A stretch of DNA of 64,000 nucleotides from Bacteroidota bacterium (GTDB lineage: Bacteria; Bacteroidota; Bacteroidia; NS11-12g; UBA9320), in the NCBI GenBank assembly GCA_024679565.1, contig JAIBDD010000016.1, positions 1 to 64,000 of the forward strand. The letters are read 5' to 3'. Position numbers and translations under genes: made by a program. The notes under the pieces are model-generated. The model ran no database searches and was not told the DNA's origin. It saw only the letters and a list, made by a program, of their open reading frames with translations. Numbering within the stretch: the first letter of the stretch is position 1; each line of letters opens with the position of its first letter. Of this stretch, positions 3,772 through 32,078 are shown piece after piece.

Positions 3772-5304
3772 ATGATTTCAAACCCACTTACAGTCAAATT
3801 AATTGTCTTAAGCATTTATGTTGCCATCCTGTTTTTAATTGGGGTCGTTGCATCCAAAAGAATTAAAAATATAAGCGATTATTATGTTGGCGGGAAAAAG
3901 ATGGGGTTCTGGGCCGTTGCTTTTTCTGCAAGAGCAACAGGCGAGTCTGGCTGGCTACTAATCGGATTGACTGGCATGGGTGCCATTGCTGGATATGCTG
4001 GTTATTGGGTGGTTGCCGGAGAACTTCTTGGGGTGTTTATTTCTTGGCAATTCATGGCAAAAAAATTCAAACGCAGATCTGACTCCTTTGGTTCCATTAC
4101 CATTCCAGATTATTTACAAAGTCATTTTAAAACAACTAATCATACATTAAGAGCTGTTGCTGCAGCTGCCCTTGTCATTTTCATTGTTATTTATGTTGCT
4201 TCACAAATAGATGTAACAGGAGTTGCCTTCAAATCAATGCTTGACATTGACTATAAAGTAGGGGCATTAATTGGCTTTTTAATTGTGCTCGTCTACATAT
4301 TTTTAGGTGGATTTGTGGCGGCGGTTTGGTCAGATTTATTTCAAGGTGTGTTAATGTTTATTGGGCTCGTTTTGTTGCCTATCGTGGTGTGGTTCTCTAT
4401 GGATCACGGCACAGGAATTACAGAAGGTTTAAACATGATTGACCCTGCCTTAACCAATATTTGGGGGAAAAGTGACGACATATGGATGAACATATTCACC
4501 ATCATAGGTTTTTCTATGATTGGTTTAGGTTTTCTTGGCTCTCCACAAGTGTATGTCCGATTCATGTCGATTAAGAATGAAGCCGAGATTGATAAGGGAA
4601 AAAAAGTTGCCCTACTCTTTACCCTGCTAACTGACGCCGCAGCAGTGACTATTGGTATTCTTGCACGTGTCATCTTTACCAAACACGGCCAAGATGCAGA
4701 GGTCATTTTAGGCATTGGAGGGAAAGATGTTTTGAGTATGATTACCGAACTATATCTACCACTGGTTGTGGTGGCGATTTACGTCGCGATAGTGCTCTCT
4801 GCAATCATGTCTACGATCGATTCATTATTGATACTCGCATCAAGTTCAATTTCTCGCGACTTCTATCAAAAGATATTTAGACCAGACCTTAAAGACGAAA
4901 ACCTCACCAATATCTCAAGAATATCTACCGTGATAATGGCTGTTTTGGCATTAGGTTTAGCCATCATTCTTAATTGGGTTTCACCCGACCGACAAGTTTT
5001 TTGGGTCATTATATTTGGTTGGTCTGGAATTGCCGCAACATTCTGTCCCGTAATTATTCTCACATTATTTTGGAAAGGCTATAGCGAAAAAGGTGCTATT
5101 GCGTCGATGATTACCGGATTTGCTTCCGTAATTGTCTTTAAGTTTTTTGTCCAATCCATAGAATCCGTTGGAAAGTACTTTATCGAACTAGACGTTCTTG
5201 CTCCATCATTTGCCCTAGCGATGATTGTCGGTGTAATCGTATCTAAGCTTTATCCACCTAGACCAGAAGCGGTCAAAAATTTAGACGAGATTGACAAATC
5301 ATAG
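3772..5304 (+). CDS. sodium:solute symporter (SSS family, PutP-like)
   Basis: Multi-TM protein with KRIKNISDYYVGGKKMGFWAVAFSARATGESGW typical of PutP-like SSS. ORF opens at 3715, but the ATG at 3772 fits the N-terminus better. Confidence 0.88.
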   Translation: MISNPLTVKLIVLSIYVAILFLIGVVASKRIKNISDYYVGGKKMGFWAVAFSARATGESGWLLIGLTGMGAIAGYAGYWVVAGELLGVFISWQFMAKKFKRRSDSFGSITIPDYLQSHFKTTNHTLRAVAAAALVIFIVIYVASQIDVTGVAFKSMLDIDYKVGALIGFLIVLVYIFLGGFVAAVWSDLFQGVLMFIGLVLLPIVVWFSMDHGTGITEGLNMIDPALTNIWGKSDDIWMNIFTIIGFSMIGLGFLGSPQVYVRFMSIKNEAEIDKGKKVALLFTLLTDAAAVTIGILARVIFTKHGQDAEVILGIGGKDVLSMITELYLPLVVVAIYVAIVLSAIMSTIDSLLILASSSISRDFYQKIFRPDLKDENLTNISRISTVIMAVLALGLAIILNWVSPDRQVFWVIIFGWSGIAATFCPVIILTLFWKGYSEKGAIASMITGFASVIVFKFFVQSIESVGKYFIELDVLAPSFALAMIVGVIVSKLYPPRPEAVKNLDEIDKS

Positions 5305-5461
5305 CCGCTCACGTTGTCAAAACATATAAACATCGCAAACTCATTAGCGTAACGGGTGTAAGAAATAATCGTGGTTTCGGTTGATATTTCCCACTTGCTT
5401 ATGCGAGAATAATCTACGTTGTTTGACTAGATAATTGTAACATCTTACGTATTAAAGCGTT

Positions 5462-6001
5462 TTGAAAGTAGTGCGGTTCATGAAGTTAATTTCGATTCTC
5501 CTATTTCTATTGCTGGCAACAACGTTGCAGGCACAACCTGCTTCTGTGGGTTCATCAATATATGGTGATTTTAATGGCGACGGAATTAAAGAATATGCAT
5601 TTTCGGTTCAGACCAAATCAGGCGTCGGCAATGCCGTTGAAAATGGAACTCCAGGCAGTTATGCTGTCTTCTTTTCAACAAATCTTATTCCAACCATAGC
5701 CGCTGGCTGCTGTGAAATTATTCTCATTAATGAAGGTGACTTAGACGGTGATGGCGCAGAAGATATTAGTTTATATCAAGCCCCAATGAATGGCAACACA
5801 CACACCATGACCACGCTATCTCTTAAAGACACTACTTGGGAAACAATCGTTCCAGTTTTTTTGATTCCTACTGGTGGCAAACCTTTAACCCCAAAGGATT
5901 TAGATGAACGTGTCTATAGTAAAGATGGTATTGTTTACTACCTAGACAACATCATAAACGATGAAAATTTAACGTTAATCGAGCAAGAAGTCCGATTGTA
6001 A
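5462..6001 (+). CDS. secreted protein with FG-GAP/Ca-binding-like repeats
   Basis: Signal peptide ending LQAQ, then DFNGDGIKEY and DLDGDGAEDI DxNxDG-type loops. Confidence 0.6.
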   Translation: MKVVRFMKLISILLFLLLATTLQAQPASVGSSIYGDFNGDGIKEYAFSVQTKSGVGNAVENGTPGSYAVFFSTNLIPTIAAGCCEIILINEGDLDGDGAEDISLYQAPMNGNTHTMTTLSLKDTTWETIVPVFLIPTGGKPLTPKDLDERVYSKDGIVYYLDNIINDENLTLIEQEVRL

Positions 6002-6029
6002 AGATTCGATAGCTGCTTTGAAGCTAGGC

Positions 6030-6737
6030 TTAGCTTACAAGCGTCCCCACCTCGTTGCCGTGAACCAAATTCACCAAGTTATCTTCTTTGTTCATATCAA
6101 AAACGACTATCGGTAGGTGGTTTTCTTGGCATAATGTAAACGCCGTCATATCCATTACTTTCAGTTGTCTTTGTATTGCTTCTGTGAAAGACAAGTTGTT
6201 ATACCTAGTTGCGGTAGCGTCCTTCTCAGGATCAGCAGAATAAATACCATCTACACGGGTTCCTTTTAGCAACACATCAGCTTCAATTTCGACTGATCGC
6301 AATGAAGCTGCAGTATCCGTTGTAAAATATGGATTGCCTGTACCTGCACCAAATATCACCACACGGCCTTTTTCAAGGTGCCTAATGGCTCTTCGACGTA
6401 TAAACGGTTCAGCTATCTGTTCCATCTTAATAGCGCTCAGCAAACGTGTAAAAATGCCTTGCTTCTCTAATGCTCCTTGTAAAGCCATTGCGTTGATAAC
6501 GGTAGCCAACATACCCATATAATCTGCCTGGGCTCTGTCTTCCATTCCACCTTCAACACCTTGGACACCCCTAAATATGTTTCCTCCACCAATAACTATT
6601 GCTACTTCAACGCCAAGATCCAAAACTTTCTTAATTTCATTGGCGTACCGCCCAAGAACTTCAGGGTCTATCCCATACTCTTTAGTCCCTAAAAGGGCCT
6701 CACCACTTAACTTTAGCAATATTCTTTTATACTTCAT
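6030..6737 (-). CDS. pyrH: UMP kinase
   Basis: [41 protein letters not shown]; located downstream of tsf. Confidence 0.97.
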
Positions 6738-9416: not shown

Positions 9417-12400
9417 TTAGCGGATGATTTGAATGGTGCCCTGAGTCTGTTGTCGAATGGTTTTCTTACCCTTATATTTAATGTAGTACGGATACACCCC
9501 TTTTGGCATGCGTTTTCCCATATAATTACCATCCCATTCAAAGTCTTTGTCATTCGTTTCAAACACTTGCTCACCCCATCGATTAAAAACAGCCATATAG
9601 AAGTCTGTCACACCTGCTGTGCGCACATGGTAATAATCATTCACGCCATCTACGCCAGGAGAAAATGCTGTTGGGATAACGACATACACCGAATCGTCAA
9701 CACACACATCGATGCTAAAGGAATCTTTACAACCACCTCTATTTTCTACATACAACCAAATAACATATTTATTGGTATCTGTTTTATAGATATGGCTTGG
9801 ATTATCCATCGTTGAATACGCTTGCTGGGTACTATCACCAAAGTACCATGTCCCTTGTGTAGCCCCAACCGTGTAGTTGATAATTTGCAACTCAGGGTCA
9901 AAAGGATTTAAACAGATTCCTTCGGTTGGTGTAGTTATAAAATACGCATTGATACGCGGGTAGGAAGGAATATATATACCCGAATCAAGGATACATTTTG
10001 TATTTAAGTTCTGTATTCTAAAGTCATACGTAGTTGCGACCTGTGCACTTATTCTATTCGTAAACCTTGGCGGAGTTGTAAACCACCTTACACTGTAAGG
10101 GTCGGTTAATCGAGGTTGCAATTCAGCAAAACCAACCGTCCCATAACATTGTGTGTCTGAGGTTATGGCATCCGTTTCTATTTTAGGAAATACATTAATG
10201 TATACACTATCACTATATGAATCAGAACATCCGTCGGTTATCGTTACATGAACCCATTGTGAATTTGGAGGCCGCACAAAAACATTACGCAGTTTTGAGG
10301 CTGAGGCCGACCAATTATATGCATAACTCGTACCTGCCCCTCGTAAGCCCCCTGCCACCAATGTAGACTGCTCTCCATAACAAAGTGAATCATCATCATA
10401 GGTAAAACTACCTTTTAAGGTGTCAAGCACATCAATGTATGCGCTATCGGTTGTATAACATGTTGCCGTACCAAATCGATACAATATTTTATGATTCCCA
10501 GACCCGGAGAGGTTTGGGTTAAATAGGCTATCTCCGAACGTTGTTCCTGTCCATGTACCTCCATAAGGTGTCCCAGATAAGGTTAAAGTGGTATCGCTAA
10601 AACAGTAAAAGGGTTGATATTGTGAGATACGGGCAATCGGTCTCGCCCCCACTTCAATTTCACAAGAGTCTATACAGCCATAACGTGAAAAATAATATAA
10701 ACGATGAGTTCCGACTCCAGCCGTTCCAGGATCAAATCTTCCTAAGCTGCTATCCAGCACACCAGGTCCGATGAAATAACCCCCAGATTGCTCTGCGTAC
10801 AAAATAATTGAAGGGTCCGTTTCACACAGCAAAGTATCTTGTTGGATATTTGACTGAGGGTGAACCACCATAATCATACTATCCCTGCAACCATAGGCAT
10901 CATAATAAAGCTTGTGCACGCCTCTACCTGCAACAATAGGAGTAAAGTAATTGCCAGATATCCCTGCACCAGTCCATCTCCCACCACCAGGCGTTCTTCT
11001 GGCACTTGACCAGTTTAGTAATAACCTTGGATCCTCGATACAAAACTTCAAAGTATCGTTGTAAATACGTGTTGGGCGCACGTACATAATCTTTTCATCC
11101 TTGCAACCATTTAGATGGTAAAACATCGTATCGTTATACGAAGTACGATTTATAGAGTATACAAATGAAGGGTCATATTCTCCAGTTATAGAGTCAACAA
11201 TTCCACGTCCTACCCAATATCCACCTGCAGGCCATCCAGCATAAGTAAATCCATTGCTCCCGTCTGGACACAGAACCTGATTACCTCTTGCGCTTATTGG
11301 TTTTACGTATACCAAGGTTGTATCCATGCAACCATTTGCATTATAGACAAGTTGTTTATTGCCGGAGCCAGCCAAACGCGGCACAAACCAACCCGACCTT
11401 CTATCATTAAAACCAGGACCAGACCAAACACCCCCTATTGGGCTAAAGTTGAGCAATATTGAATCTGTTGATTGGCAAACGGTGTCAAACTCTTGAGCAA
11501 AAACCGTAAATACGTTTATTCTCTTCGTATCGGAACAACCATTCCAGGTGTATGTTACTATGTAAGTCCCTGTATCAACAGGATTAAACAATCCAGTACT
11601 GTCTATATTCGGGCCCGACCATATACCACCTGCAGGGTTTGCTCCTGTTACTCGAAACGGGGACAAACCTGGACAAGATGCATCTGGAGGCCCAGCATCA
11701 AAAGCAATAACATGGACGATTGTGGTATCAATACATCCTGCAAAATGATAAATCTCAAGGTGTGAACCAGCACCGGCTGTTGGAGCGTCAAACAACCCAG
11801 TTGCGAAATCCGTGATGCCATTTCCAGTCCAATAACCGCCTACAGGAGTAGCTGTTAAATTAAAGGGATTGGCTGCTTCACATACGGTTGTATCCCCACG
11901 AGCCACAGGTGGGCTCACAACTTCTATCCAAATAGAATCTGTACCCGGGATTGAAACACCGTCAGAAACAGTCAATTTCACCCAGCCAGAGGTCAGCGGA
12001 CAATAGGTATGCGGACCAAAGCTGCCATTTATTCCTGATGACCAATTGAATACATATAAGCTAGAATCACCTCCTGTTACTTCTGCCGTTATTTCAGTGC
12101 AAGTTCCGTTACATACTGTATCCGGATCCGCAATTAAGTTTACATAAATTGGGCAATTGGTAATGTCAAATGTCGTATCAGAATGTAACGTCCAAGCCGA
12201 ATCACATCGATCATATTTTATAGCATCAAATTCAACTGTATAAGTCCCACTGCGGTCTAACATGGGTGTTACATTTAACACAAATGTGTCTGTTTCGTTG
12301 TTGGCGTCACAATTAATTGGAGTTAACGTCACTCCAGGATTGATTGGCCCTGTCACCGTAAAATTAGAACCTGATAATGAGTCGCAGTTCCACTTTTGAT

Positions 12401-12890
12401 CAAGTTTTATACCCACTTTAGAATCTTCACAACTCACCGTAGGTGGCATAATTTTCGGTGGCAAGATTGGTATAACTTTGGTTGTCCAACTGGCTTCCCA
12501 CCCATCACAATACTTACTCGCATCGCTATGAAAGTATATTGTTAAACATGAATCCGTCGTGGTATAAGAACTTGGCGTACTTGATCCTGAAATCTTACCG
12601 CTTAGCTTATTGGCCGTAGTGTCTTTCCCGTCATATAAGATAAGGTAATCCAGATCGGCCTCTGTACAAAACGATGAAAAACTTAACGTAATACTTTCAG
12701 CACCTGGTACACAAATCGTAAATATATAGTCTTCATTGTGGTCATAATCTAAGGATGTACTCCCGTTGTCGCTATCAAAAAAATTACCCTTACAATCACT
12801 CACCTTTGCATTACTCATGTAAAAGTCGTTTTGCGCGTAGCTTGTAATGGCAAAAATTAAAAATATTGATATGGCAATCAGTTGTCTCAA
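9417..12890 (-). CDS. T9SS type B (gliding motility-associated C-terminal, CHU_C) secreted protein with N-terminal CUB-like domain and tandem GGxWxGxG repeats
   Basis: Signal peptide; CUB-like N-terminus (LDYLILYDGKDT...); seven ~65-aa Cys-paired repeats; C-terminus VVIPTAFSPGVDGVNDYYHV...YNRWGEQVFET-like CHU_C signature. TTG start overlaps the upstream stop (TTGA). Confidence 0.88.
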   Translation of the reverse strand: MRQLIAISIFLIFAITSYAQNDFYMSNAKVSDCKGNFFDSDNGSTSLDYDHNEDYIFTICVPGAESITLSFSSFCTEADLDYLILYDGKDTTANKLSGKISGSSTPSSYTTTDSCLTIYFHSDASKYCDGWEASWTTKVIPILPPKIMPPTVSCEDSKVGIKLDQKWNCDSLSGSNFTVTGPINPGVTLTPINCDANNETDTFVLNVTPMLDRSGTYTVEFDAIKYDRCDSAWTLHSDTTFDITNCPIYVNLIADPDTVCNGTCTEITAEVTGGDSSLYVFNWSSGINGSFGPHTYCPLTSGWVKLTVSDGVSIPGTDSIWIEVVSPPVARGDTTVCEAANPFNLTATPVGGYWTGNGITDFATGLFDAPTAGAGSHLEIYHFAGCIDTTIVHVIAFDAGPPDASCPGLSPFRVTGANPAGGIWSGPNIDSTGLFNPVDTGTYIVTYTWNGCSDTKRINVFTVFAQEFDTVCQSTDSILLNFSPIGGVWSGPGFNDRRSGWFVPRLAGSGNKQLVYNANGCMDTTLVYVKPISARGNQVLCPDGSNGFTYAGWPAGGYWVGRGIVDSITGEYDPSFVYSINRTSYNDTMFYHLNGCKDEKIMYVRPTRIYNDTLKFCIEDPRLLLNWSSARRTPGGGRWTGAGISGNYFTPIVAGRGVHKLYYDAYGCRDSMIMVVHPQSNIQQDTLLCETDPSIILYAEQSGGYFIGPGVLDSSLGRFDPGTAGVGTHRLYYFSRYGCIDSCEIEVGARPIARISQYQPFYCFSDTTLTLSGTPYGGTWTGTTFGDSLFNPNLSGSGNHKILYRFGTATCYTTDSAYIDVLDTLKGSFTYDDDSLCYGEQSTLVAGGLRGAGTSYAYNWSASASKLRNVFVRPPNSQWVHVTITDGCSDSYSDSVYINVFPKIETDAITSDTQCYGTVGFAELQPRLTDPYSVRWFTTPPRFTNRISAQVATTYDFRIQNLNTKCILDSGIYIPSYPRINAYFITTPTEGICLNPFDPELQIINYTVGATQGTWYFGDSTQQAYSTMDNPSHIYKTDTNKYVIWLYVENRGGCKDSFSIDVCVDDSVYVVIPTAFSPGVDGVNDYYHVRTAGVTDFYMAVFNRWGEQVFETNDKDFEWDGNYMGKRMPKGVYPYYIKYKGKKTIRQQTQGTIQIIR

Positions 12891-13333
12891 CGGCGCACGA
12901 TACTTATTTCGTCGGTCTGAATTGGGTTGCTGGCATTACCCGCGCGATCTGTAAATATGAGTTCATAGGTTGTCAGTTCATTTTCGCTAGACCCTAGCAA
13001 AAAAGTATTTTTTAATTTTACCGTTAGTTCGCCTGCAATATCTAAATTGGCGTCGATTGGCGCTAACAAGCCTACATGCTGAAAATCTGAAGTTTCAAGC
13101 CTTAAATCATGAATACCAAGCGGCTTAATATCCGGGTTTTCGTAACCCAAATCGCCATCGGGATCTGAGTACTTAAATGTAATCAATATAGAGTCTTGAA
13201 ACTCTTTCACTTCACGTGGCTGAATATCTACGTACTCAATAATAGGAGGTCCAGAAGGTTTCTCGACTAGAGTTACCTCGGTACAACCTAAGGAAAGCAT
13301 TATTATAGTAGTGAGGTAAAGTAGTTTTTGCAT
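12887..13333 (-). CDS. lipoprotein, uncharacterised beta-rich domain
   Basis: Lipobox MLSLGC; paralog-like to 60581-61102. Confidence 0.65.
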   Translation of the reverse strand: MQKLLYLTTIIMLSLGCTEVTLVEKPSGPPIIEYVDIQPREVKEFQDSILITFKYSDPDGDLGYENPDIKPLGIHDLRLETSDFQHVGLLAPIDANLDIAGELTVKLKNTFLLGSSENELTTYELIFTDRAGNASNPIQTDEISIVRR

Positions 13334-13338
13334 GCGTT

Positions 13339-14286
13339 CTATTTCAATTTTAAGGTTGCGTATTCTTTCGCTCTAAACAGGGAGTTATCATTTGGCGCTT
13401 CGCTCGAATTGACTCCGTCAGAAACATGAGTTCTTAACCAAATCACATCCCCACTTTGCCAATCTGCTAGTGAAATAGTGGCTCGGTGATAAAATGACTC
13501 ATCTTCACCAAAATACCCTTTGGCCGTTTCGGGGCTGCCTGTGTAAGTCAGCGTCGTCATTTTCGTACTATCAAAATCATTCGCCATTATAGACAGATCA
13601 ACAGACGCGTTGGTGAGTTGATCTGGAGTTAACCCATCATCTTCAAACGACACCCAAATCTCAACACTTGAGGCACCCGATGGTATATTCATGGACTTAT
13701 AGATCCCATTTCGTGAGACAACGCTTCCATTTACTTTCGCGATTATTCCATTTAATTGAACTGGGTAATTTGACGCCGTTGGAACTTCCCCGTTTTGGTT
13801 TAACGCCCCATTGTCAATCCATGTTTCAATGTTCTTAATGTATTCGTCTTTCTTCTGAGGCCAATCGCTGTCGGGATCCGCCAGAATTGGCATTGTTCCA
13901 GAATTACCGTTAATATCAACCAACATCCGCCTTACAAGCATACTTGTAGACGCGTTGCCCGGAGTTACCCTTGCCGTTAGTGGGTTCATATCATCTTGTT
14001 TGATAATAGGCTGACCAATCAGTGTGTTGTAAGATGATTCAATTGTTCTAAAATCTGGCTCGAAATTTCCGTCATGACATCCTGAATTTGCACACGTTGG
14101 TAAGAATATGTTTGCATGTATCCCTTCAATGGTGTTCGGATCTAAATCCGCCTTTGAACCATCTACTTTTTCATGCTCTTGCCCTACGGTTTGATTATCG
14201 TAAGGATTGGTCACGTCTGGATCTGAACTGTTACATCCAACTGATAATAGTACCCCTAAAAAATATAGCGCACTTAGTTTTCTCAT
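13339..14286 (-). CDS. lipoprotein with cytochrome-c-like CX4CH domain
   Basis: Lipobox LLSVGC; IHANIFLPTCANSGCHDGNFEPDF... MPILADPDSDWPQKKDEYIKNIETWIDNGAL resembles planctomycete-type cytochrome c domains. Confidence 0.65.
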   Translation of the reverse strand: MRKLSALYFLGVLLSVGCNSSDPDVTNPYDNQTVGQEHEKVDGSKADLDPNTIEGIHANIFLPTCANSGCHDGNFEPDFRTIESSYNTLIGQPIIKQDDMNPLTARVTPGNASTSMLVRRMLVDINGNSGTMPILADPDSDWPQKKDEYIKNIETWIDNGALNQNGEVPTASNYPVQLNGIIAKVNGSVVSRNGIYKSMNIPSGASSVEIWVSFEDDGLTPDQLTNASVDLSIMANDFDSTKMTTLTYTGSPETAKGYFGEDESFYHRATISLADWQSGDVIWLRTHVSDGVNSSEAPNDNSLFRAKEYATLKLK

Positions 14287-15629
14287 ATCCTATCAAATAA
14301 TGATTTTGAACCAGGGTTTACGAATCCAGCATTTAACACCGCATCTTTTACACCGAATATATCTGCCACCGTTAACACATTGTCTGTAGTTAAACCAATT
14401 TGGTTCGACTCACTACCTACAATCATATTCGAAGGAACGTTGGGACCAGCCATCAAGCTCCATACACGTCTTGTGTTGGCATCGCCACTATGGTCATAAC
14501 CATACCAGTCATTTTCATCTTGAATTGGGTTCGGGTTTAAATTTCTACCACACTCTGGCGTAGCCAACATAATTGTCTTTCCAGCCATTTCAGGAATCTC
14601 TTTTTGAATGTAATCCCACAACCAGCCAACTCCGTGGTCCGCTCTATGCAATGATCTCAGATATCCACTAAAATTACCATGACACCCATCAACGTTGGTA
14701 AGATTGACTACCGTAATTTTGGGTTTAAAGTATTTCATTACCTCAGCTGCATACGCAAGAGTATTCAAATCACCACTGCTTCCTGCAGGAGGACGTGCCA
14801 GTCCGCCAGTTTGTTTTTTAGTAAACATCTCTCTGACGAATTTTTTAATATTTTCTTTTTCATCTTCTCCGTTGCGGATGCCTTGCACTTCTCCATTTTT
14901 GATTCTAAACGAATTGTTTAAGAATTCTCTCATCTTCTGAATCGGCTCAAGTTCCTCATCTGGATGATACACTTTGGCATTACTCAGTACGTCCAAGCCC
15001 TCGTTGCCAAACGTAATACTAGGCGCAACAAAATTTGCTCCATACTCGGTACCGTACATTTCATGATTACTTGAGTTTAGTAAAGGAAATGAATTCCCGA
15101 TACCAGAACCAACAAACCATACATCTGAAGCTTTAAACCCTCTGTGTCTCCTCAAATATTCAAAAATGGTAGGCGAATTGGGTCTAACTTTTAATCCTTG
15201 TGCTGTAGACCGACTTCCCGTTAATAAGGAATTTAGCCCCCCGTAATGCCCTCCATTCACCGCTTCGACTTCAGGAAACAACAAACCCTGAGACTGCAAA
15301 GTGTTGGTCAATAACTTGGGAATTGGTAGACTTCCTGTCGGCTCATTGGTCGGTGTTGTACCATACACAATCTTTTTGTCAGGAGCCGTCCCGTTAAACA
15401 TGTTGTACATGATATTGCCGCCGATGTCTACGCCTTGGCTACCAGACAAATATTGCTGCAATACCGATTCCTGCTGTCGCACACCTCCGGCAAATAACAC
15501 ATATATCACGTGATCTGCAAGCTCAGCGTTTGTTTTGGCAAACAATCTACCCGAAGGTAATATATAAGGGAACGCGGCACTTCCTGCTGCGGTCAAGCCT
15601 ACTTTTTTAACAAATTCTCTTCTTTCCAT
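14283..15629 (-). CDS. DUF1501-like protein with twin-arginine signal
   Basis: MERREFVKKVGLTAAGSAAFPYILPSG Tat signal; VIYVLFAGGVRQQESV resembles DUF1501 N-termini. ATGA overlap with the downstream gene. Confidence 0.65.
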   Translation of the reverse strand: MERREFVKKVGLTAAGSAAFPYILPSGRLFAKTNAELADHVIYVLFAGGVRQQESVLQQYLSGSQGVDIGGNIMYNMFNGTAPDKKIVYGTTPTNEPTGSLPIPKLLTNTLQSQGLLFPEVEAVNGGHYGGLNSLLTGSRSTAQGLKVRPNSPTIFEYLRRHRGFKASDVWFVGSGIGNSFPLLNSSNHEMYGTEYGANFVAPSITFGNEGLDVLSNAKVYHPDEELEPIQKMREFLNNSFRIKNGEVQGIRNGEDEKENIKKFVREMFTKKQTGGLARPPAGSSGDLNTLAYAAEVMKYFKPKITVVNLTNVDGCHGNFSGYLRSLHRADHGVGWLWDYIQKEIPEMAGKTIMLATPECGRNLNPNPIQDENDWYGYDHSGDANTRRVWSLMAGPNVPSNMIVGSESNQIGLTTDNVLTVADIFGVKDAVLNAGFVNPGSKSLFDRI

Positions 15630-15637
15630 AATGCGAC

Positions 15638-16135
15638 TTAATAAAACTGGTACTCATCTGCAGATGCAAAGGCCGTGTACACCAACTCTGGTGTGATATT
15701 CGGATTTGCTTCTATGTAATTAACGAAAAATGCTTTTTCAATTTCGGTTGGTATCCGTACAAAAAACAATTTGTACGTATCAGTAATAAACGAATCCAAG
15801 TCCGTTCTCATTTCATCGTTGGTTGGCATAACCACATTACCATTATTCATGTAGTTACTAACGATTACCTCATTTATCAGTGCTTTATCGCCAAACGATT
15901 CAATAACACGCTCTGTGCGTATCAATTGATTACTGGAAATTGCTTTCTGATGTAACGTGGTATACAGAATAGAAATGAACTGCTTATTGGACTTTGATCT
16001 GTCTTTTATCAAACTCTTATCTTCAATGTCGACATCGTTGACATCGTACGTAGCGATAACATCCTTTTTGCACGACGCAAGACTGATGATGGCCACACCT
16101 ATTATGATTAAATACTTGTTTTTAAAAATCCGCAT
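15638..16135 (-). CDS. small lipoprotein
   Basis: Lipobox IISLASCKKD; C-terminal FFVRIPTEIEKAFFVNYIEANP; overlaps upstream CDS by 14 nt. Confidence 0.6.
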   Translation of the reverse strand: MRIFKNKYLIIIGVAIISLASCKKDVIATYDVNDVDIEDKSLIKDRSKSNKQFISILYTTLHQKAISSNQLIRTERVIESFGDKALINEVIVSNYMNNGNVVMPTNDEMRTDLDSFITDTYKLFFVRIPTEIEKAFFVNYIEANPNITPELVYTAFASADEYQFY

Positions 16136-17054
16136 ACTCGTCTGTTATTATGATTTCTTTTTGAAGGTTTCTAAAGTCTTGAGTACTCTGGAGTGTTTGA
16201 AAATGACTGGACACCTCTGAGGTGGTTGGATCACGATCCAACAAGGTTAAATACGTCCAACGTATCAACCCTTCATAAAACTCATCCGATTCTGTCAACA
16301 GTTTGCAGTACCCCCCTTTTGTGGCAGCAAAACCGCCAAAGAGTGGACCGACTTCGTTTCTCTCTATGATGTTAAAGGCAATATCAAATTCTGTTTGGGT
16401 CGGAAAACGATAAAACAAATCGTCAAATGAAGCATTCACAAAATTGAATGTATTCATATTGATTTCGTCATAGACATTGTTGTTTAGCATCCGCGCAAAT
16501 ACTTCATTCAATGTTATTTCCTGATTCCTGAATTCATATTTGGCATCAAGGACTTCTTGATTTCGCTTAATCTTATCCAGTGCCGCAAAAACACGTATAG
16601 AGTCTCCAAGCAATCTTCCTTGTCTTAAAGAATTGTTTGCATTGCCTATATGCCTCGTAAAGGATGGCGTTTCAGCTCCTTCAACCATCCTTGACTTAAT
16701 AATTATATACAAGCGCTCTCCATAAGCGATTGAGTAACTAGAGTCGCCTACGACTTCAGCTGAATCCGTCTGTAATTTTGTAACTAGAGTCTCTCTACTT
16801 GCCTTACTTAAGTTATTCTCCTTAAGTAAATCAGTCTCAAACGCCAATTCGGTTTCAAGAGGTGTTCTGCCGATTAAATCAATAAATACACGTGTAACAT
16901 AGCCTTCAATCTTAATCGTAGGAATACGGTGGGGTGAAATGGCTGTATTGTTGTCAAAGTTTTTGTCTTCTGTTTTTTTACATGATACAAAAACCGTAGT
17001 CAATAAGACTAAACAAAAAACCCATTTAATAAAAGAATTAGAGGTACACGACAT
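16122..17054 (-). CDS. lipoprotein with DUF1549/DUF4214-like motifs
   Basis: Lipobox TVFVSCKK; YVTRVFIDLIGRTPLETELAFE and WTYLTLLDRDPTTSEVSSHF motifs. Confidence 0.6.
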   Translation of the reverse strand: MSCTSNSFIKWVFCLVLLTTVFVSCKKTEDKNFDNNTAISPHRIPTIKIEGYVTRVFIDLIGRTPLETELAFETDLLKENNLSKASRETLVTKLQTDSAEVVGDSSYSIAYGERLYIIIKSRMVEGAETPSFTRHIGNANNSLRQGRLLGDSIRVFAALDKIKRNQEVLDAKYEFRNQEITLNEVFARMLNNNVYDEINMNTFNFVNASFDDLFYRFPTQTEFDIAFNIIERNEVGPLFGGFAATKGGYCKLLTESDEFYEGLIRWTYLTLLDRDPTTSEVSSHFQTLQSTQDFRNLQKEIIITDEYADF

Positions 17055-17170
17055 GTTGAAGTAGCAAAAGCATTATACCAAATATACGAAAATCTCTTCA
17101 AATATTTGTCTCAAAACCCCTAAAAAGGTTGCATCAATTACACCAAAACATGTGAATATGGCAAAATAAT

Positions 17171-20151: not shown

Positions 20152-23100
20152 TCATTTTGTAATAACCACCCGTTGTGTAGAAGTGTAATCTCCATTCTTA
20201 ATTTGAACGAAGTATACGCCTTCAGCAACTCCTGTAACATCAATATTAAATTGAGTTGACGGTTTAGTAGTATCAACTACTGTTACAAGAACGCCTTTTG
20301 TATCATAAAGTGCGATTTCTACATCACCATTTATTTCAGTCATTGTTACCGCAAATGCACCTTTGTTAGGGTTAGGATAAACGTTGACTCCATTTTCAGT
20401 CGTCACGTCATTCACCCCAACTAAGTCAACATTCACATCGTTACACTTCTCTGAAGAACAACCTGCTTTATCCGTTAAGGTTAAGCATACGTTGAATGTT
20501 TGAACCACAGCACTTGAAAAACGGTGCACTGGTGCAATTGAAGTTGATGTATTACCATCGTCAAAGTTCCAGTTATAGCTAGTTCCACCCAATTCAATTG
20601 GAGAGAATGTTACTTCTCTTCCGCTAGTTGCATGTGTGAAGTCACTATTTGGAAGTGGATTAACCGGCACCAATTGCTCAGATGAATCAACACAGTTCGC
20701 ATTACTAGCAATTAACAATACTCTGTAATCACCCGTTGAGCTATATGTATTTGATGGATTTGCGTTGTTACTTGTATTGCCATCGCCGAAGCTCCAAGCA
20801 AATGAAGTTCCGTTTTGTGACGTATTCGAGAACATCGTTTCGTCACCTAAACAATTACCTACTGCTGTAAAGGCTGCAGTCGGGCTTGTACTGATAGCAA
20901 CCATTTTAGTTACTTCATCAGAACATCCATCGTTTGTACGCACAATCAGTGTTACATTTTTGTTTCCACTTGAAGCGAATGTATGTGATGGGTTTTCATC
21001 CATACTTAAGTTACCGTCACCAAAGCTCCAACTATGTGTATTAGCACCCGTTGAAGTATTGGTAAACGTTGTAGCTGCGCCTTCACAACCCGAAGGAGCA
21101 TTGAAGTCTGCAGTTGGGTTAGCACTAACTTTAATACTGCCTGTAACAACGTTAGAACATCCTAATGGGTTCATTGCTATTAACTCTACAGTATATGTTG
21201 AAGCAGATCCATACGTATGTGTAGGGTTTGTTAAGTTGCTTGAATTTCCGTCACCGAATTTCCATGCAGAGCTGCTCGCATTAGAACTTTCATTCGTAAA
21301 GCTAGCTGACTCTCCTAAACATACATCACTTGTGCTAAACTTAGCCAATGGCGCTTCATATACCGCGATTGGAGATGTCGTAGAAGTCATACAACCTCTA
21401 TTAGATGTAACAGTCAATGTTACATTATATACACCCGCTTTAGCATAAGTATGAGAATTTGATGTTCCAGTAGAGGCGTCACCATAATTCCAATTGCTAT
21501 TCGCGATTGATCCACCACCAATTGAACTTGTATTAGTAAAGTCAACGTTAGGTCCGGTACACAACGCTTTCGAAGTAAACGAAGCTACTGGATTTGGATT
21601 AACTGTTACACTACTTGTCATTGAGTTAGTACATCCTGCAGCCGTTGTAACTGTTAACTGAACAGCATATGTACCTGCACTAGCATAGGTGTGACTTGGG
21701 TTCAACAATCGACTTGTTGCGCCATCACCTAATGTCCAACTATTCGCCCCTCTTGTTGAGGTGTTGCTAAACGCTGCTGCACTTCCCTCACACGGAGAGT
21801 TTGCAGTAAACGCTACAGTAGGCTGCGGAGATACCACAACTGCTTGCTTAGCTTCCATTGAACATCCGTTTCCATTTGTTGCCGTTAACGTTACGTTAAA
21901 GGTTCCTGAGGAGTTATACGTATGGTTAGGATTCTTAGCCGCGCTTGTACCACCGTCTCCGAATGTCCAGGCGTATGTGTTCGTTCCTGCTGAATTGTTC
22001 GTAAACTGAATACCCGCTTTCTCACAACCCGAAGCTGTGGCGAATGCTGTTTTTGGTAATGCGTGAATTGTGATTTGACTTGAAGTTGAAGACTCACAAC
22101 CATTGCTATTTTTCACAGTTAACATTACCGTGTATGTACCTGCCGACTTGTATGTATGGCTAGGTGATGTAGTTGTACTTGCTCCACCGTCACCGAAGTT
22201 CCAAAGGTACGACCCAGTGCTACTTTTGTTTGTAAACGATACGGCTGTTCCTGCACAAGCGTCGCTTGCAGAGAAGTCAGCTGTTGGCGTGCCAAATACC
22301 GTTACACTAACTGATTTAGTATCTGTACAACCCGCAGCATTTTCGGCAGTTAATGTAACTGTGAAATTACCAGAAGCTGTATATGTATGTGATGGTTTAG
22401 TTGCAGTTGAAGCAGCGCTTCCGTCTCCGAAGTTCCAAGAGTACTTAGTAGCACCTCCAGAATAGTTAGAGAAACTCATTGCATTACCCACACAAACATT
22501 AGCGGTTGTAAAGTCTGCAGTTGGCACGTCATTTACAACTACAGTAGTTGTATACGAATTTGAACATCCATTAGCAGTAGCCATCAAGGTTACTGTGTAG
22601 TTACCAGCCGAACTGTATGTATGACTTGGGCTTGTAGCGGTAGATGTTGATCCGTCACCAAAGTTCCAAGAATAGGTTAATGTTCCGCTCGAGATACTGC
22701 TTGTATTTGTAAATGATGTTGCGTTACCTAAACACACTGTAGAGTTGTTAAACCCTGCAGTTGGTAAGTCATTCACTGTAGCAGTTGTTGTTTCTACTGT
22801 TGAGCAACCATAAGCACTATTAGCAGTCAATTTAACTGTATAAGTACCTGCTTTAGCATAGGTATGTCGTGGAGATTGTGCTGTACTTGAATTTCCATCG
22901 CCGAAGTCCCAATCATAAGATGATGCTCCTGTGGTTGTAGAAGTAAAGTACGAAGCTGTGCCTTCACAAACATCGCTTACAGACACACTAACTGTAGGTG
23001 CTTTGTACACCTGGATAGACTTAGTAACTGTACCAGAACAATTGCCTTGACCAGTTGTAGTTAAACTAACCGAGTAGTTACCTGCAGCACTGTAGCTGTG

Positions 23101-26100
23101 TGTTGGGTTTTCAGCACTTGATGTGCTGCCATCACCGAAGCTCCATGCATATGTTTTTGTACCTGACCCTCCAGTAGTTGCATTTGTAAATGTGGTTGTT
23201 CCACCTGCACAAACACTAGTAGCAGAAAAATCTGCTTTTGGAGTATCATATACTGTAACACTTGATCTCGTTGTATCCTTACACCCTTTATCTGATTCAA
23301 CAGTTAAAGTAACCGTGTATGTTCCTGCTTTATTGTATTTATAGGTTGGTGTAGTCGTTGTGAACGTAGCACCGTCTCCCATATCCCAGTGATTACCGTG
23401 ATTTGAAGTAGAGCTATTTGTTGCACTTACTGATTGACCTGTACATAAATTAGATAAGCTGAACGCAGCTGTTGGGTTAGGGAATGAAACAACTTTTGCT
23501 TCGAACGAATCGCGACAACCGTTGTTGTTGTATGCTACCAGTTTAACATCAAATGTTCCTGCTGAAGTGTATACATGTGTTAATGCTTTAGCCCCAGAAT
23601 TTGATGTTGCACCATCTCCAAACGTCCAAGCATATGAATGTGCATATAGCGTTCCATTGTTAAATGGTTTACCTGTATTCACACAACGATCATCTTTCGA
23701 GAAGTAAACAGAAGGTTTAACCTTCACTGTTACTTTCTTAGTTGTTGTATCGTCACACTCGTTACCATCCTTAGTAATTAATGTTACGTCATACGATTGA
23801 GCTACACGATAGAAGTGAACAGGGTTTTCAACTGTTGATGACGTTTTATCATCAAAATCCCAAGTGTATGAGGCAGCGTTTGTAGATGCGTTGATAAATC
23901 GAACGCTATCTCCGAAACACTCATCATTCGCCGTAAATCCAGAAACACCTTTCTTAGCTATAGTTACGTTTCTTGTAACAGAATCGATAAATCCACCTGG
24001 AAGGAAGATTTTAAACTTAACTGAGTACGTTCCTGTAGTTGCATACTTATGCGTTGGGTTTTGTGCAGTTGAACTAGAACCATCACCAAAGTCCCATGCA
24101 AACGCAGAGATTTTACCACAGTTCACAGAAGTTGCATTCTTAAACAACACTTCTTCCTTAACACAATCAAATACTTTCGTAAATGCTGGTGTTGGTACGT
24201 TAGACACATTCACTGTGCTAGTTGATGAATCAACGCAACCAATGTTCGACGTTACTTTTAACTTAACTGTTTTAATACCACTTGTTGCATAAACGTATGA
24301 AGGCACGCGTGCTGTACTTGTGTTTCCGTTACCGAAATCCCAAGCAAACCTAGTCAATGAACCTGTAGCCACTGTCGAGTTATTTGTAACCGGCATCACA
24401 TCATTGAAACAATGATTAGCCACAATAAATGATGACTTAGGCAATGGTGCTATCGTAACCTTTACAGAGTTTGTAGGTTTAGTACCACAACCACTTCCTG
24501 AAGTTACATTTCTTCTATAGAAAGTAGTTGACGTTAAACCTGTTGTAGAAGTAAACGATGCAGAAGTAGCTCCTGAGATATCCGACCAAGTCGTATTATC
24601 TGGAGAAGTCTGCCATTGGTATGTATATGAGTTGTCTCCACCAGAAGGGCTTGTTGTGCCATTCATTGGATCGGCAGGGCTTTGAGGACAAACACTGTGG
24701 TCGTTACCAACCAAACCAGCGTATAGATCATTGTAAACAAGAATCTTTGTCGCATTACTGGCTACCGAACCACATCCTGATCCACCTATAGACATTAATC
24801 TATAGTATGTTGTTGAGGTCAATACACCAGGTGAGTAACTTGTTGTTGTTGCGCCTGCAACAGAACTCCAAGAAGTTCCATTACTTGAAGATTCCCATTG
24901 GTGTGTCCATGTTCCGTCTCCACCAGTTGCCGAAGCACTTTGGCTAATCGTAGCAGGCATCGTGTTGTAACAAATATTTTGGTCTGAACCTATTAAAGCT
25001 CCAGCCAATTTGTCGTAAACAGTTATTTTTAAACTTCCCGTATAAGAAGGTCCACATCCTACATCAGTAGTTGCAGCTCTTCGGAAATACGTAGTAGTTG
25101 TTAATGTTCCACTTGTATAATCTGCGCTTGTAGCACCCGATATGTCACTGAAGTTAACATTGTCTGTTGACGACTGCCATTGGTACTGGTAAGCACCAGC
25201 ACTACCTGAAGCCGCAGCCGTAGATGTAAACATCGATGGTGCTACATTATAACATATTGTCGAAGCGCTAGATATAGTACCAGCTGCTAATGCAGTAAGT
25301 ACATTTACAGATTGTGTTGCTGTATCTCTACAACCAACATTAGACTCACTCATAATAGTAACCGTATAGGTACCATTACTTGCATAGGTGTGTGTTGGAC
25401 TTGTTGTAGAAGCTGTTCCACCATCGCCAAACATCCAGTCGGTCGAAGCCAATGAACCCGTAGCCACTGTGCTTGTATTTGTAAAACTCATAGCATCTCC
25501 TAAACAAGAATCTGACTGAGTAAACGAAGAAACAGGATACGCCCAGTAAGGTACCGAAGTACTTGCTGAATTATCGCTAGCATCTACATCTCCATCAGCG
25601 TTCGTAACTGTTATGACATTAGCAGTTGTTCCGCTTAGGTCTACAGTTAAAGGTAAGGTACGTGTATACGTAACACCTTTAGCAAAAGGTCCTGTTACCG
25701 TCACCAATGTTGGCGTTCCAGCATCAACGCTTACGTTGAAGCGTGCAGCTTGTTGAATGATGTCACCTTCGTTCTTGAAAGTAACCGACACTGTAGCAGC
25801 TGAATTCATTGTTCCACACATTGAATCACTTGTTACAGACATAACGTTTAAGTCTGGATTGATTTCTAATGCACCAATTGTTGGCATTGTTAGAGATCTT
25901 GTAGCACCAGCGATATCTTTCGCTGTACCCGTAGAATCACCTGCACCATAAAATCTTTCTTGATTCATATGGTAATCTGGAGAACTACTTGGATGAGGGT
26001 TCATATTCATTGAACTTCCATCACCAAGAGTTGAATAGGTATTCAATACAGTTGCTGAACGGTTGCCTCCTGAATAAATCAGATTTGTACCTCTTGGGTT

Positions 26101-29100
26101 GTAATAATTATTATTGTCTAACGTGATTAATGCACCTGGCGAAGTGGTTGAATAGTAAGCATAACTAGCTGTTGATACAATTGAACCAGAAACACTAAAG
26201 ATGTTGTTTCTAATATCTAGGTAGTTACCAGACGACCTGTAAAATGCTCTACATGCAGGAGAAGAAGAGGGGTTTACTTCTACTGTGTTATGGAAGTAGT
26301 CAACATAATCACAACCGTTATTGTAAATACCATAATTTGTACTAGTATACACTCTAAATCCAGAGATTACGTTATTCGCAAACAGTAACCTGTTGGTAGA
26401 TGCTCCATCGCATTGGAGCATGTATGCACCATAGATTCCAATATTCTTAATGATATTGTTTGTAATAGTAGTGCGAGACTGGGTACTACTTGAACCAACA
26501 TAACCCAAGTAAAATGGATAATACGAATACGTTGAAGTTGGATTCATTGTAATGGTATTGTTATGAATGGTAGCACCACTCAGATAATACATGCGTGCTC
26601 CGTAATAACCTGCATTCACCATTGTATTGTTCGTAAACATAAACCCACTGGTTCTCAAAGTTGAACTAGAACTTCTACCAACAATTGAAAAACCGTATCC
26701 TCCGTTTTCAAATCGACAACTATCAATATGCAGGCTATCTGAATTTCCAAGTGATCCTGAGCTATAACTCGTTGTGCTTGAATTCACAACCATAGGAGTT
26801 CTATTTGAAGAACTGGTTAGAGTTCCGCCAGTCTTAAACACACATCGATCAACGTTTACGTTGCTTGACATCATGATGTGCATTGGCCAACCATTATACA
26901 AGTTAGTCGACTGTACAGTTAAACCTCTTAAGTTTACATAGTCCGTGCTGCTAATTCTTAGTGTGTGGAAGTTGCCATACGAATTATTCGCAAATGTCAA
27001 AATAACATCGGCAGGATCTCCTGATGCTGATTGTAATGTGATGGTGTTGGTACTTGACGTACCTAGGATGTTTTCTATTGACCATTGGCCAGTATACGTT
27101 CCTGCTGCAATATTAAATGTAACAGCCCCACCGATACCAGCACATTGCATTTCATCGATTGCATCTTGTATAGTTTCAAAATCGCTTGAACTAGTTCCTA
27201 CTGTAAACACTCCACCAGCCATTGGCACACCTATAGTGGTCGTTGGGCCCTCATCGTTACTCGTTACGTCGTCGGTTGTACCATTTGGCAAGCTAGTCCA
27301 CGAACGTACTTGAACACAACCCGCAGTATGACTACCAGGGCTTGTAAACGTCAAAGTATCAGACGTACACCCAGCAAGAGACAATCCTGTAAATGTTTGA
27401 GATTGGCTTGTGGCACTTCCGAATTGATAATGTACCGTTAACGCCGTAATCGTTGTAGTCCCAAAATTCTTAACAGCCACCTTAACCGTTTGGTTACCGG
27501 CAGTAACTACGCCAGAAGGTGAAAGTATTTCTGTAACACCACCATCTAACGCTCCAGTTTCCACCTCATCTGCACCTGGGTGAGTTGTAGCGGGATTTCT
27601 GTTAGCGCCGTCCATATCCGTAGTTACAGACGATATGGATGGGAATCTTAAGAAACAACCATCAGCGATATGTAAGTCACTTGAGCTTTTAAACGGCACC
27701 ATAACCGATTTTGAATTCCTATCGGATGATGAGCTATATGTATTTAGTGCTGTTTTTGTTCTGTACCCACCATTATAACACGCATACTGCCCCGTTTTGT
27801 TGTAATAAACGTTGTAGTCTAACACACGTGTTGAACCATTTGCCGTGGTAGTAGTATAAAATGGCAAATGATTTGTAGTGTTCGAATTACCATTAACCAC
27901 TAAGATGTTGTTTCTAACATTATAGTAATTCACAGAGCTAAAATATAGTGCACGGGCTTGTGAGGTTGAGTTTATATCCAAAACCATTGTGTTATGATAT
28001 ATATCCCAATAATCACTACTGTAATTGTATAAACCATAAAACGTTGGATTACCTCTAAAAGATCCAATAGTATTGTTAGCAAAAATTCCTCGTGTTGTAG
28101 AACCGTTGTCACAATTATTCAGATAAACCCCTTGATAACCTGAGTTTCGAATTTGGTTCTGAGTAATTTGAACATTGTTTTTGACATAATAACAATAAAT
28201 ACCTGTATAAGCTTCAACAGCAGTTGAAAGGTTAATTACATTATTGTGCACAACCATACCGGTTTGATAGTATAAATACATACCGTAATAACCGAGGTTA
28301 TTCATGTTACAATTGGTTATCTCTAACCCAGGTGAAAGTGATGAAGTTGAAGACCCACCGCCATAAGCCGCGATTCCCCATGCTGCTTTAGAAATAGAGC
28401 AACTGTCTATTTTTATGTCAGTTGCCTTATAACCAGTATATTGACTTCTTGCACTACCGTTTACCAGAATGCCAATAAAATTAGACGATGTGTTTTCTGT
28501 TGTAGTCTGTATTACACAGTTACTAACCGTAATGTAATCTGACCTTAATAAATGTAGAGGCCAAGCAAATGTTGTATTGGTATTTAAAATTGTTAAATGA
28601 CGTAAAACAATATATTTCGAAGCGTTCAATTTTAACGTATGTCTAGCAGAAGTGGTCGTAGTTGCATTGGTGATTTTAACATCACTTGCGTTACCCGAAG
28701 CAGCTTGAAAGGTAATTGTATTGGTAGCAGATGCACCTGTATAACTTCCTAGTTCAAATTGACCTGTGTATGTTCCTGATGCAATGTTGAAAACAACTGC
28801 CCCACTAACACCAGCACAGTTCAACGCGTCAATGGCGTCGTTGATGGTATTGTAATCTGAACTTGTTCCACCTACTGTAAATGTACCCGACATGGCTACA
28901 CCAAAATTTGAAGTAGCTGTATCATTCGTTGCATCTCCATCTGTTGTGGAATTTGGTGCTGATGTCCAAGCATTGAGATTGGTACACCCAACGGTGTGAC
29001 TAAATGTTGTAGTAAAAGTGATGGTGTCGTTTGCACAACTTGCCAGTGTATTGGAAACCGCTTGTGAGACAGTTGAGCCACCAGCTACTTTGTAATTTAC

Positions 29101-31677: not shown

Positions 31678-32078
31678 AAATCTAAATCCTATTTGTTCTA
31701 ATAAAAAATGCAGAAACAGAGTCAACTCTACCCAGAAAAGGGAGAGATACCTAAAATTGGAAGGGTTTTTAGATACAAAACCCAATTACACACTACTTCT
31801 ACAAGTTCAAATGTTATGATAATGTCAGCCAAATGCAAGTTTTTATCCCCATTTACGCCATAAGTACACTTTTGATGACACTTTTTCGTTTCCCAAAAAC
31901 GCATCTTGAAGGCTGTTTTTAAATTAGAAACTCTACTTTTAGTTCTCAATTAAATGCCCTATCATTGCATCAGAGAGTCCCGATCAGGAATTCTTTTTTC
32001 TACATTATTTCCGAACCCTTTCGCGATTAATTTTAGAATCACAATTATTAAAAATCATAACACCACGTATCACTTTAT

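Follow-up and report, generated by a model that had tools for sequence, protein, structure and literature searches.

The 64,000-nucleotide stretch analysed here (the window; positions 1 to 64,000 of contig JAIBDD010000016.1 of the Bacteroidota assembly GCA_024679565.1) carries on its minus strand a cluster of six consecutive genes, designated g1 to g6 in reading order. The first gene, g1 (16122-17054), encodes a lipoprotein of 310 amino acids, predicted to be all-helical, whose lipobox cysteine (Cys25) is followed by KKTED. It is followed by g2 (15638-16135, 165 amino acids), encoding a small lipoprotein (CKKD) with DUF4214-like C-terminal helices, and by g3 (14283-15629, 448 amino acids), whose product combines a start of the twin-arginine translocation (Tat) type (RR), a predicted alkaline phosphatase (AP)-superfamily fold and a DUF1501-type active-site signature. 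Downstream are located g4 (13339-14286, 315 amino acids), encoding a lipoprotein with a PSCyt1-like putative cytochrome c domain and a C-terminal domain of no assigned type; g5 (12887-13333, 148 amino acids), encoding a small lipoprotein with a conserved Y-x-D-x-D-G-D-L-G motif; and g6 (9417-12890, 1157 amino acids), encoding a protein with a CUB domain, Gly/Trp-rich repeats and a CHU_C sorting domain of the type IX secretion system (T9SS).

The genes are closely packed: g1 and g2 overlap by 14 nt, 8 nt separate g2 from g3, g3 and g4 overlap in an ATGA, 5 nt lie between g4 and g5, and g5 and g6 overlap in a TTGA. The start codon of g6 is TTG, and a plausible signal peptide comes after it. The open reading frame list shows that all gene coordinates and junctions in a preliminary description of this DNA, made from the sequence alone, were correct. 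The spacing is alike in relatives (g1/g2 overlap mostly 14-26 nt; g3/g4 and g4/g5 often ATGA-type). A Bacteroidota -7-like promoter element, TATATTTG (17079-17086, minus strand), is located 32 nt 5' of the g1 ATG, at the position reported earlier. The motif TAnnTTTG was found no more than 150 nt upstream of g1 at 17 of 27 loci, compared with ~3.4 expected from shuffled sequences, and its frequency exceeds chance (with several of the genomes being closely related to each other).

Conservation and distribution of the gene cluster

Relatives were drawn from an order-level sample, a species-level genome collection and longer regions around the loci, and the locus order was scored by a six-frame profile search at the 57 loci whose flanks were long enough on either side (a few loci are one record fetched twice, e.g., L033/L066, L045/L075, L047/L076, L064/L071). 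At 50 of these 57 loci, g1 to g6 are intact and have identical order and strand. In a distant clade, four loci (L102, L103, L109, L112) carry g1-g5 without a recognised g6, and three loci from two genomes (L115 repeats L056) retain g3 alone; g5 is present at all 54 loci carrying more than g3. An exception to the conserved order is L078, where g3 (4844-6181) has no recognised g1 or g2 in the 4.8 kb upstream, the downstream end being cut. The genes flanking the operon vary between genera (in the window's genus, an antiporter-like gene and rplM-rpsI-rpsB-tsf). The conserved six-gene order rules out that the genes are neighbours by chance or unrelated hitch-hikers: the six genes are a real, co-inherited unit. 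Co-occurrence of the genes in other genomes, on which the preliminary description had made its proposal depend, was indeed found. Note that the contig of L103 is titled Saccharospirillaceae (Gammaproteobacteria), yet holds the five-gene core; this title may be wrong, as the locus resembles L102 (Flavobacteriales).

The presence of g3 and g4 is concordant in 96 of the 97 order-level genomes (59 with both, 37 with neither as a strong match). The sole mismatch (60 genomes with g3, 59 with g4) is a fragmented assembly with g3 only. Among 393 genomes sampled across the phylum, a strong g3 ortholog was found in two only, the window's own genome included, and the operon is therefore frequent in certain uncultured lineages and rare outside them. 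Among the record titles of the relatives are Bacteroidia, Flavobacteriales, Cryomorphaceae, Chitinophagales and Saprospiraceae, and the operon is single-copy in nearly all genomes searched. A check for joint loss of the operon and T9SS or Tat revealed none, as both systems are nearly universal in the sample.

Predicted properties of the encoded proteins

The AlphaFold model of g3 (predicted local distance difference test score (pLDDT) 83.9, predicted template modelling score 0.85) was analysed using Foldseek, and the top 50 matches all belonged to the sulfatase/AP superfamily (best E 5e-9, mostly sulfatases); the search of PDB sequences with the g3 profile gave a weak match only (S1_8A sulfatase, E 0.06). 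Canonical relatives in this superfamily show the motifs D-G-x-R, S-Y-P-G, E-T-D-x-x-A-H, D-H-G-R-G and H-G. In g3, however, the first metal-site Asp is replaced by Gly, the nucleophile Ser by His128, and the D-H pair mostly by E-C or E-H (E359, and C or H at position 360). The residues G48, G49, R51, H128, D314, H317, G361, R362, D379 and H380 are invariant in 40 orthologs, and E359 is conserved in 38 of them; the canonical two-metal site with a Ser/Thr/Cys nucleophile was not found in these proteins. The second metal site thus appears to be lost and the other one kept, and g3 would hold a single metal (the assignment of H128 to the nucleophile position and of H317 as a metal ligand comes from motif reading and sequence alignment, not from ligand superposition). 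Shortened solo copies of g3, lacking g1-g2 and g4-g6, are present in sister genomes (L056, 8384-9385; L057, 8090-9091; L058, 5203-6300; L059, 8074-9162) and keep the signature residues; the site therefore appears to be under selection.

Comparable active-site changes are carried by DUF1501 proteins (residue table), and the DUF1501-type signature (Gly for the first Asp, His at the nucleophile position, D..H, E-x-G-R, DH) is present in g3. Comparison with two DUF1501 sets using hhalign gave E values of 2.5e-7 and 4.1e-8; with the first set, g3 aligns end to end and the signature residues stand opposite each other. The Pfam model DUF1501 (PF07394) matched neither g3 nor 21 aligned relatives. The twin arginine at the start of g3 is RR in 38 of the 40 orthologs and RK in two, TatC is encoded in the genome, and g3 is a predicted Tat substrate. 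The earlier designation of g3 as a Tat-type, DUF1501-like protein is borne out by these features together with the AP fold.

The N-terminal half of g4 aligns with the PSCyt1 domain of PSCyt-DUF1549-DUF1553 proteins (hhalign E 1.2e-9, probability 96%); the signal peptide falls within the alignment and by itself scores ~30, compared with 81 here. The alignment keeps in register the haem motif, the Met-Pro further downstream and the WIxxGA end. The features of PSCyt1 (PF07635), i.e., a haem c motif, an MP region, a WIxxGA end and a similar profile, were all found in g4, and the Pfam model itself matched neither g4 nor its relatives. The haem motif of g4, CANSGCH, replaces the usual CXXCH and is of the CX4CH type in 35 of 36 orthologs and CX5CH in one; C65, C70, H71, M132, P133, W156, I157 and G160 are invariant in the family. 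Genes for cytochrome c assembly are present in the genome, and the g4 profile weakly matched the cytochrome FoxE among PDB sequences (E 0.03). The CX4CH lipoprotein of the preliminary description is thus a likely haem protein with a cytochrome-like domain. Another cytochrome lipoprotein may be encoded elsewhere in the same genome (G000, contig C21, 21114-21572), where a protein of ~236 amino acids weakly matches the g4 profile (E 4.5e-5).

As described before, g6 combines CUB (E 3e-11) and CHU_C (8e-18) domains; it also matches the T9SS type B sorting model TIGR04131 (1.2e-13), and its orthologs are conserved over the full length. The genome possesses the T9SS gene for SprA, and g6 is a predicted type IX cargo. 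In g1, g2, g4 and g5, the lipobox Cys is present in all aligned orthologs and is followed in the family consensus by K-K-(D/E)-(D/E). This consensus fits the optimum C-X-K-(D/E)2-X of the Capnocytophaga surface-lipoprotein export signal (PMC5080379), whereas the copies in the window fit it only in part.

The model of g1 is all-helical (pLDDT 91.6), and its best PDB match in Foldseek was a phycobilisome linker (3osj, probability 0.99, but E 0.6). Pfam matches of g1 orthologs were weak: DUF4214 (down to 6e-07), PBS_linker_poly (8e-09), PSCyt2/DUF1549 (0.012) and PSD1/DUF1553 (0.003). DUF1549 (PF07583) was matched by six of 17 orthologs, all far short of the family cut-off, and hhalign gave a probability of 65% (E 6e-5); a g1 profile search of genomes holding DUF1549 proteins did not recover these proteins. 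The relationship to DUF1549 is suggestive only, so that of the earlier label "DUF1549-like lipoprotein" the second word stands and the first is weakened. For g2, DUF4214 was weakly matched in 12 of 18 orthologs (best 1.7e-05), and the hhalign probability for DUF1553 (PF07587) was 47% with one alignment and ~10% with another. The g5 family has invariant C17, G60, G63, D76 and R78; no Pfam family matched it, nor did its profile match any PDB sequence.

Comparison with PSCyt and DUF1501 systems

The PSCyt and DUF1501 families are abundant, yet in the literature searched they have no proven function, only correlations. DUF1549 and DUF1553 occur in 41 copies each in Rhodopirellula baltica (PMC2754498); the parent families are found in a context of sulfatases and carbohydrate-binding proteins in Verrucomicrobia (PMC5615132, a correlation only), and DUF1800-DUF1501 pairs in the neighbourhood of chitin synthase (PMC5122149, likewise a correlation). 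In three Bacteroidota genomes, a DUF1501 gene directly adjoins the canonical PSCyt-DUF1549-DUF1553 gene at 12 of 12 loci, just as g1/g2 adjoin g3 in the window.

Like the PSCyt1-DUF1549-DUF1553 plus DUF1501 systems, which occur in Planctomycetes, Verrucomicrobia and some Bacteroidota, the operon encodes in close neighbourhood a DUF1501-type protein with a twin-arginine start, a cytochrome c domain and a helical partner. In contrast to these systems, its parts lie on separate lipoproteins in the order g1-g2-g3-g4, its haem motif has the CX4CH form, it additionally encodes a small lipoprotein and a T9SS-sorted CUB protein, and the scores remain below the Pfam cut-offs. It contains counterparts of the cytochrome and DUF1501 parts and possible ones of the DUF1549/DUF1553 parts. 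As the domains lie on separate genes rather than in one fused polypeptide and the Pfam models do not match, we regard the operon as a divergent split variant and not as a formal member; the preliminary description had already suggested such a split PSCyt/DUF1501 arrangement, a view that gains support here. The searches with hidden Markov models that it had proposed assigned none of the proteins to an unrelated known function.

DUF1800-DUF1501 pairs resemble the operon in having a partner gene beside the DUF1501 protein, a comparable signature (SHF, DTH, SEFGR, DHG) and a Tat-type start. Such a pair is present in the window's own genome (L065, contig C34, 7011-10226), where the DUF1501 gene lies downstream of a DUF1800 gene and encodes a protein with a Tat-like RR start and a T9SS sorting domain at its end. 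Here, unlike in the operon, no cytochrome gene was seen adjoining, and the DUF1501 protein itself carries the T9SS tail. The nearest profile to g3 is that of phosphodiesterase/sulfatase-like Bacteroidota proteins of 365 amino acids, which belong to the same superfamily (Pfam Phosphodiest/Sulfatase) but retain the full two-metal, Ser-nucleophile site. This family is widespread (L117-L144), with a complete AP site (DGxRWQE, SYPGY, ETDxxAH, DHGRG) and modest matches to Phosphodiest/Sulfatase.

Proposed function and alternatives

With somewhat better than even confidence, we propose that the six genes are transcribed together and encode a complex of the cell envelope, a diverged Bacteroidota version of the PSCyt1-DUF1549-DUF1553 and DUF1501 set that is split into separate proteins; a surface redox/hydrolase complex is our best guess for its nature. 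The six products would assemble at the outer membrane into a single complex, in which the helical, linker-like g1 and g2 would scaffold g3 and g4. The g3 protein may bind or cleave a substrate at its single-metal site, g4 may shuttle electrons to or from this substrate, and g6 may tether the complex to a polymer or a neighbouring surface outside the cell. A more far-reaching proposal, which we put forward tentatively and consider rather doubtful, is that the operon encodes a redox complex of the cell surface that is widespread among uncultured Bacteroidota and hitherto undescribed. This complex would couple a single-metal AP-fold protein, with His in place of the nucleophile, to a CX4CH cytochrome lipoprotein, the components being delivered via Tat, lipoprotein export and T9SS.

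Several points weigh against the proposed split variant. No Pfam or NCBIfam model scored above its cut-off for g1-g5 of the window, the links of g1 to DUF1549 and of g2 to DUF1553 are weak, and pairwise hhalign E values of ~1e-3 arise from signal peptides alone. Furthermore, g3 scores nearer to the 365-amino-acid proteins (E 1.8e-17) than to DUF1501 (E 2.5e-7), and because of this closer raw score it is named DUF1501-like rather than a DUF1501 member. The C-K-K-(D/E) signal is uncalibrated against other lipoproteins of the clade, and haem binding, activity, complex formation and localisation are predictions from sequences and models.

The AP-superfamily fold of g3, with sulfatases as the best structural matches, and the proximity of its profile to phosphodiesterase/sulfatase-like proteins would also suit an ordinary secreted phosphatase or sulfatase, the other genes encoding accessory binding proteins for nutrient scavenging. 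We consider this quite improbable, as the canonical two-metal ligands are gone, with G48, G49 and H128 fixed in 40 of 40 orthologs, and the operon carries no glycoside hydrolase, nor does any of its six proteins have a domain of the SusC/SusD pair of Sus-type polysaccharide utilization loci. Alternatively, g3 could be a dead enzyme in a structural complex, a scaffold anchoring the CUB/CHU_C protein g6 to the outer membrane; indeed, g1 resembles the phycobilisome linker, a scaffolding fold, and the long, repeat-rich g6 is linked to the operon in most genomes. However, H128, D314, H317 and H380 are invariant even in the solo g3 copies, and the complete cytochrome motif of g4 is kept in the distant clade lacking g6. 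A pure scaffold is disfavoured because it would need neither the altered-site residues nor the cytochrome motif, and we regard it as unlikely. The T9SS sorting domain of g6 and the presence of T9SS throughout the sample could further suggest that the operon serves type IX secretion or gliding as an accessory module, but SprA is also present in most genomes of genus g10, which lacks the operon, and the distant clade carries g1-g5 without g6, which makes such a role highly improbable.

This compact, mostly single-copy operon, with one part per gene, would make the division of labour testable gene by gene. In view of the shared His-for-nucleophile signature, the DUF1501 family as a whole may be something other than ordinary phosphatases. 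Another large protein, of 3877 amino acids, is encoded in the window at 20152-31785; it contains many PKD-like repeats and, as judged by eye, a type A T9SS tail.

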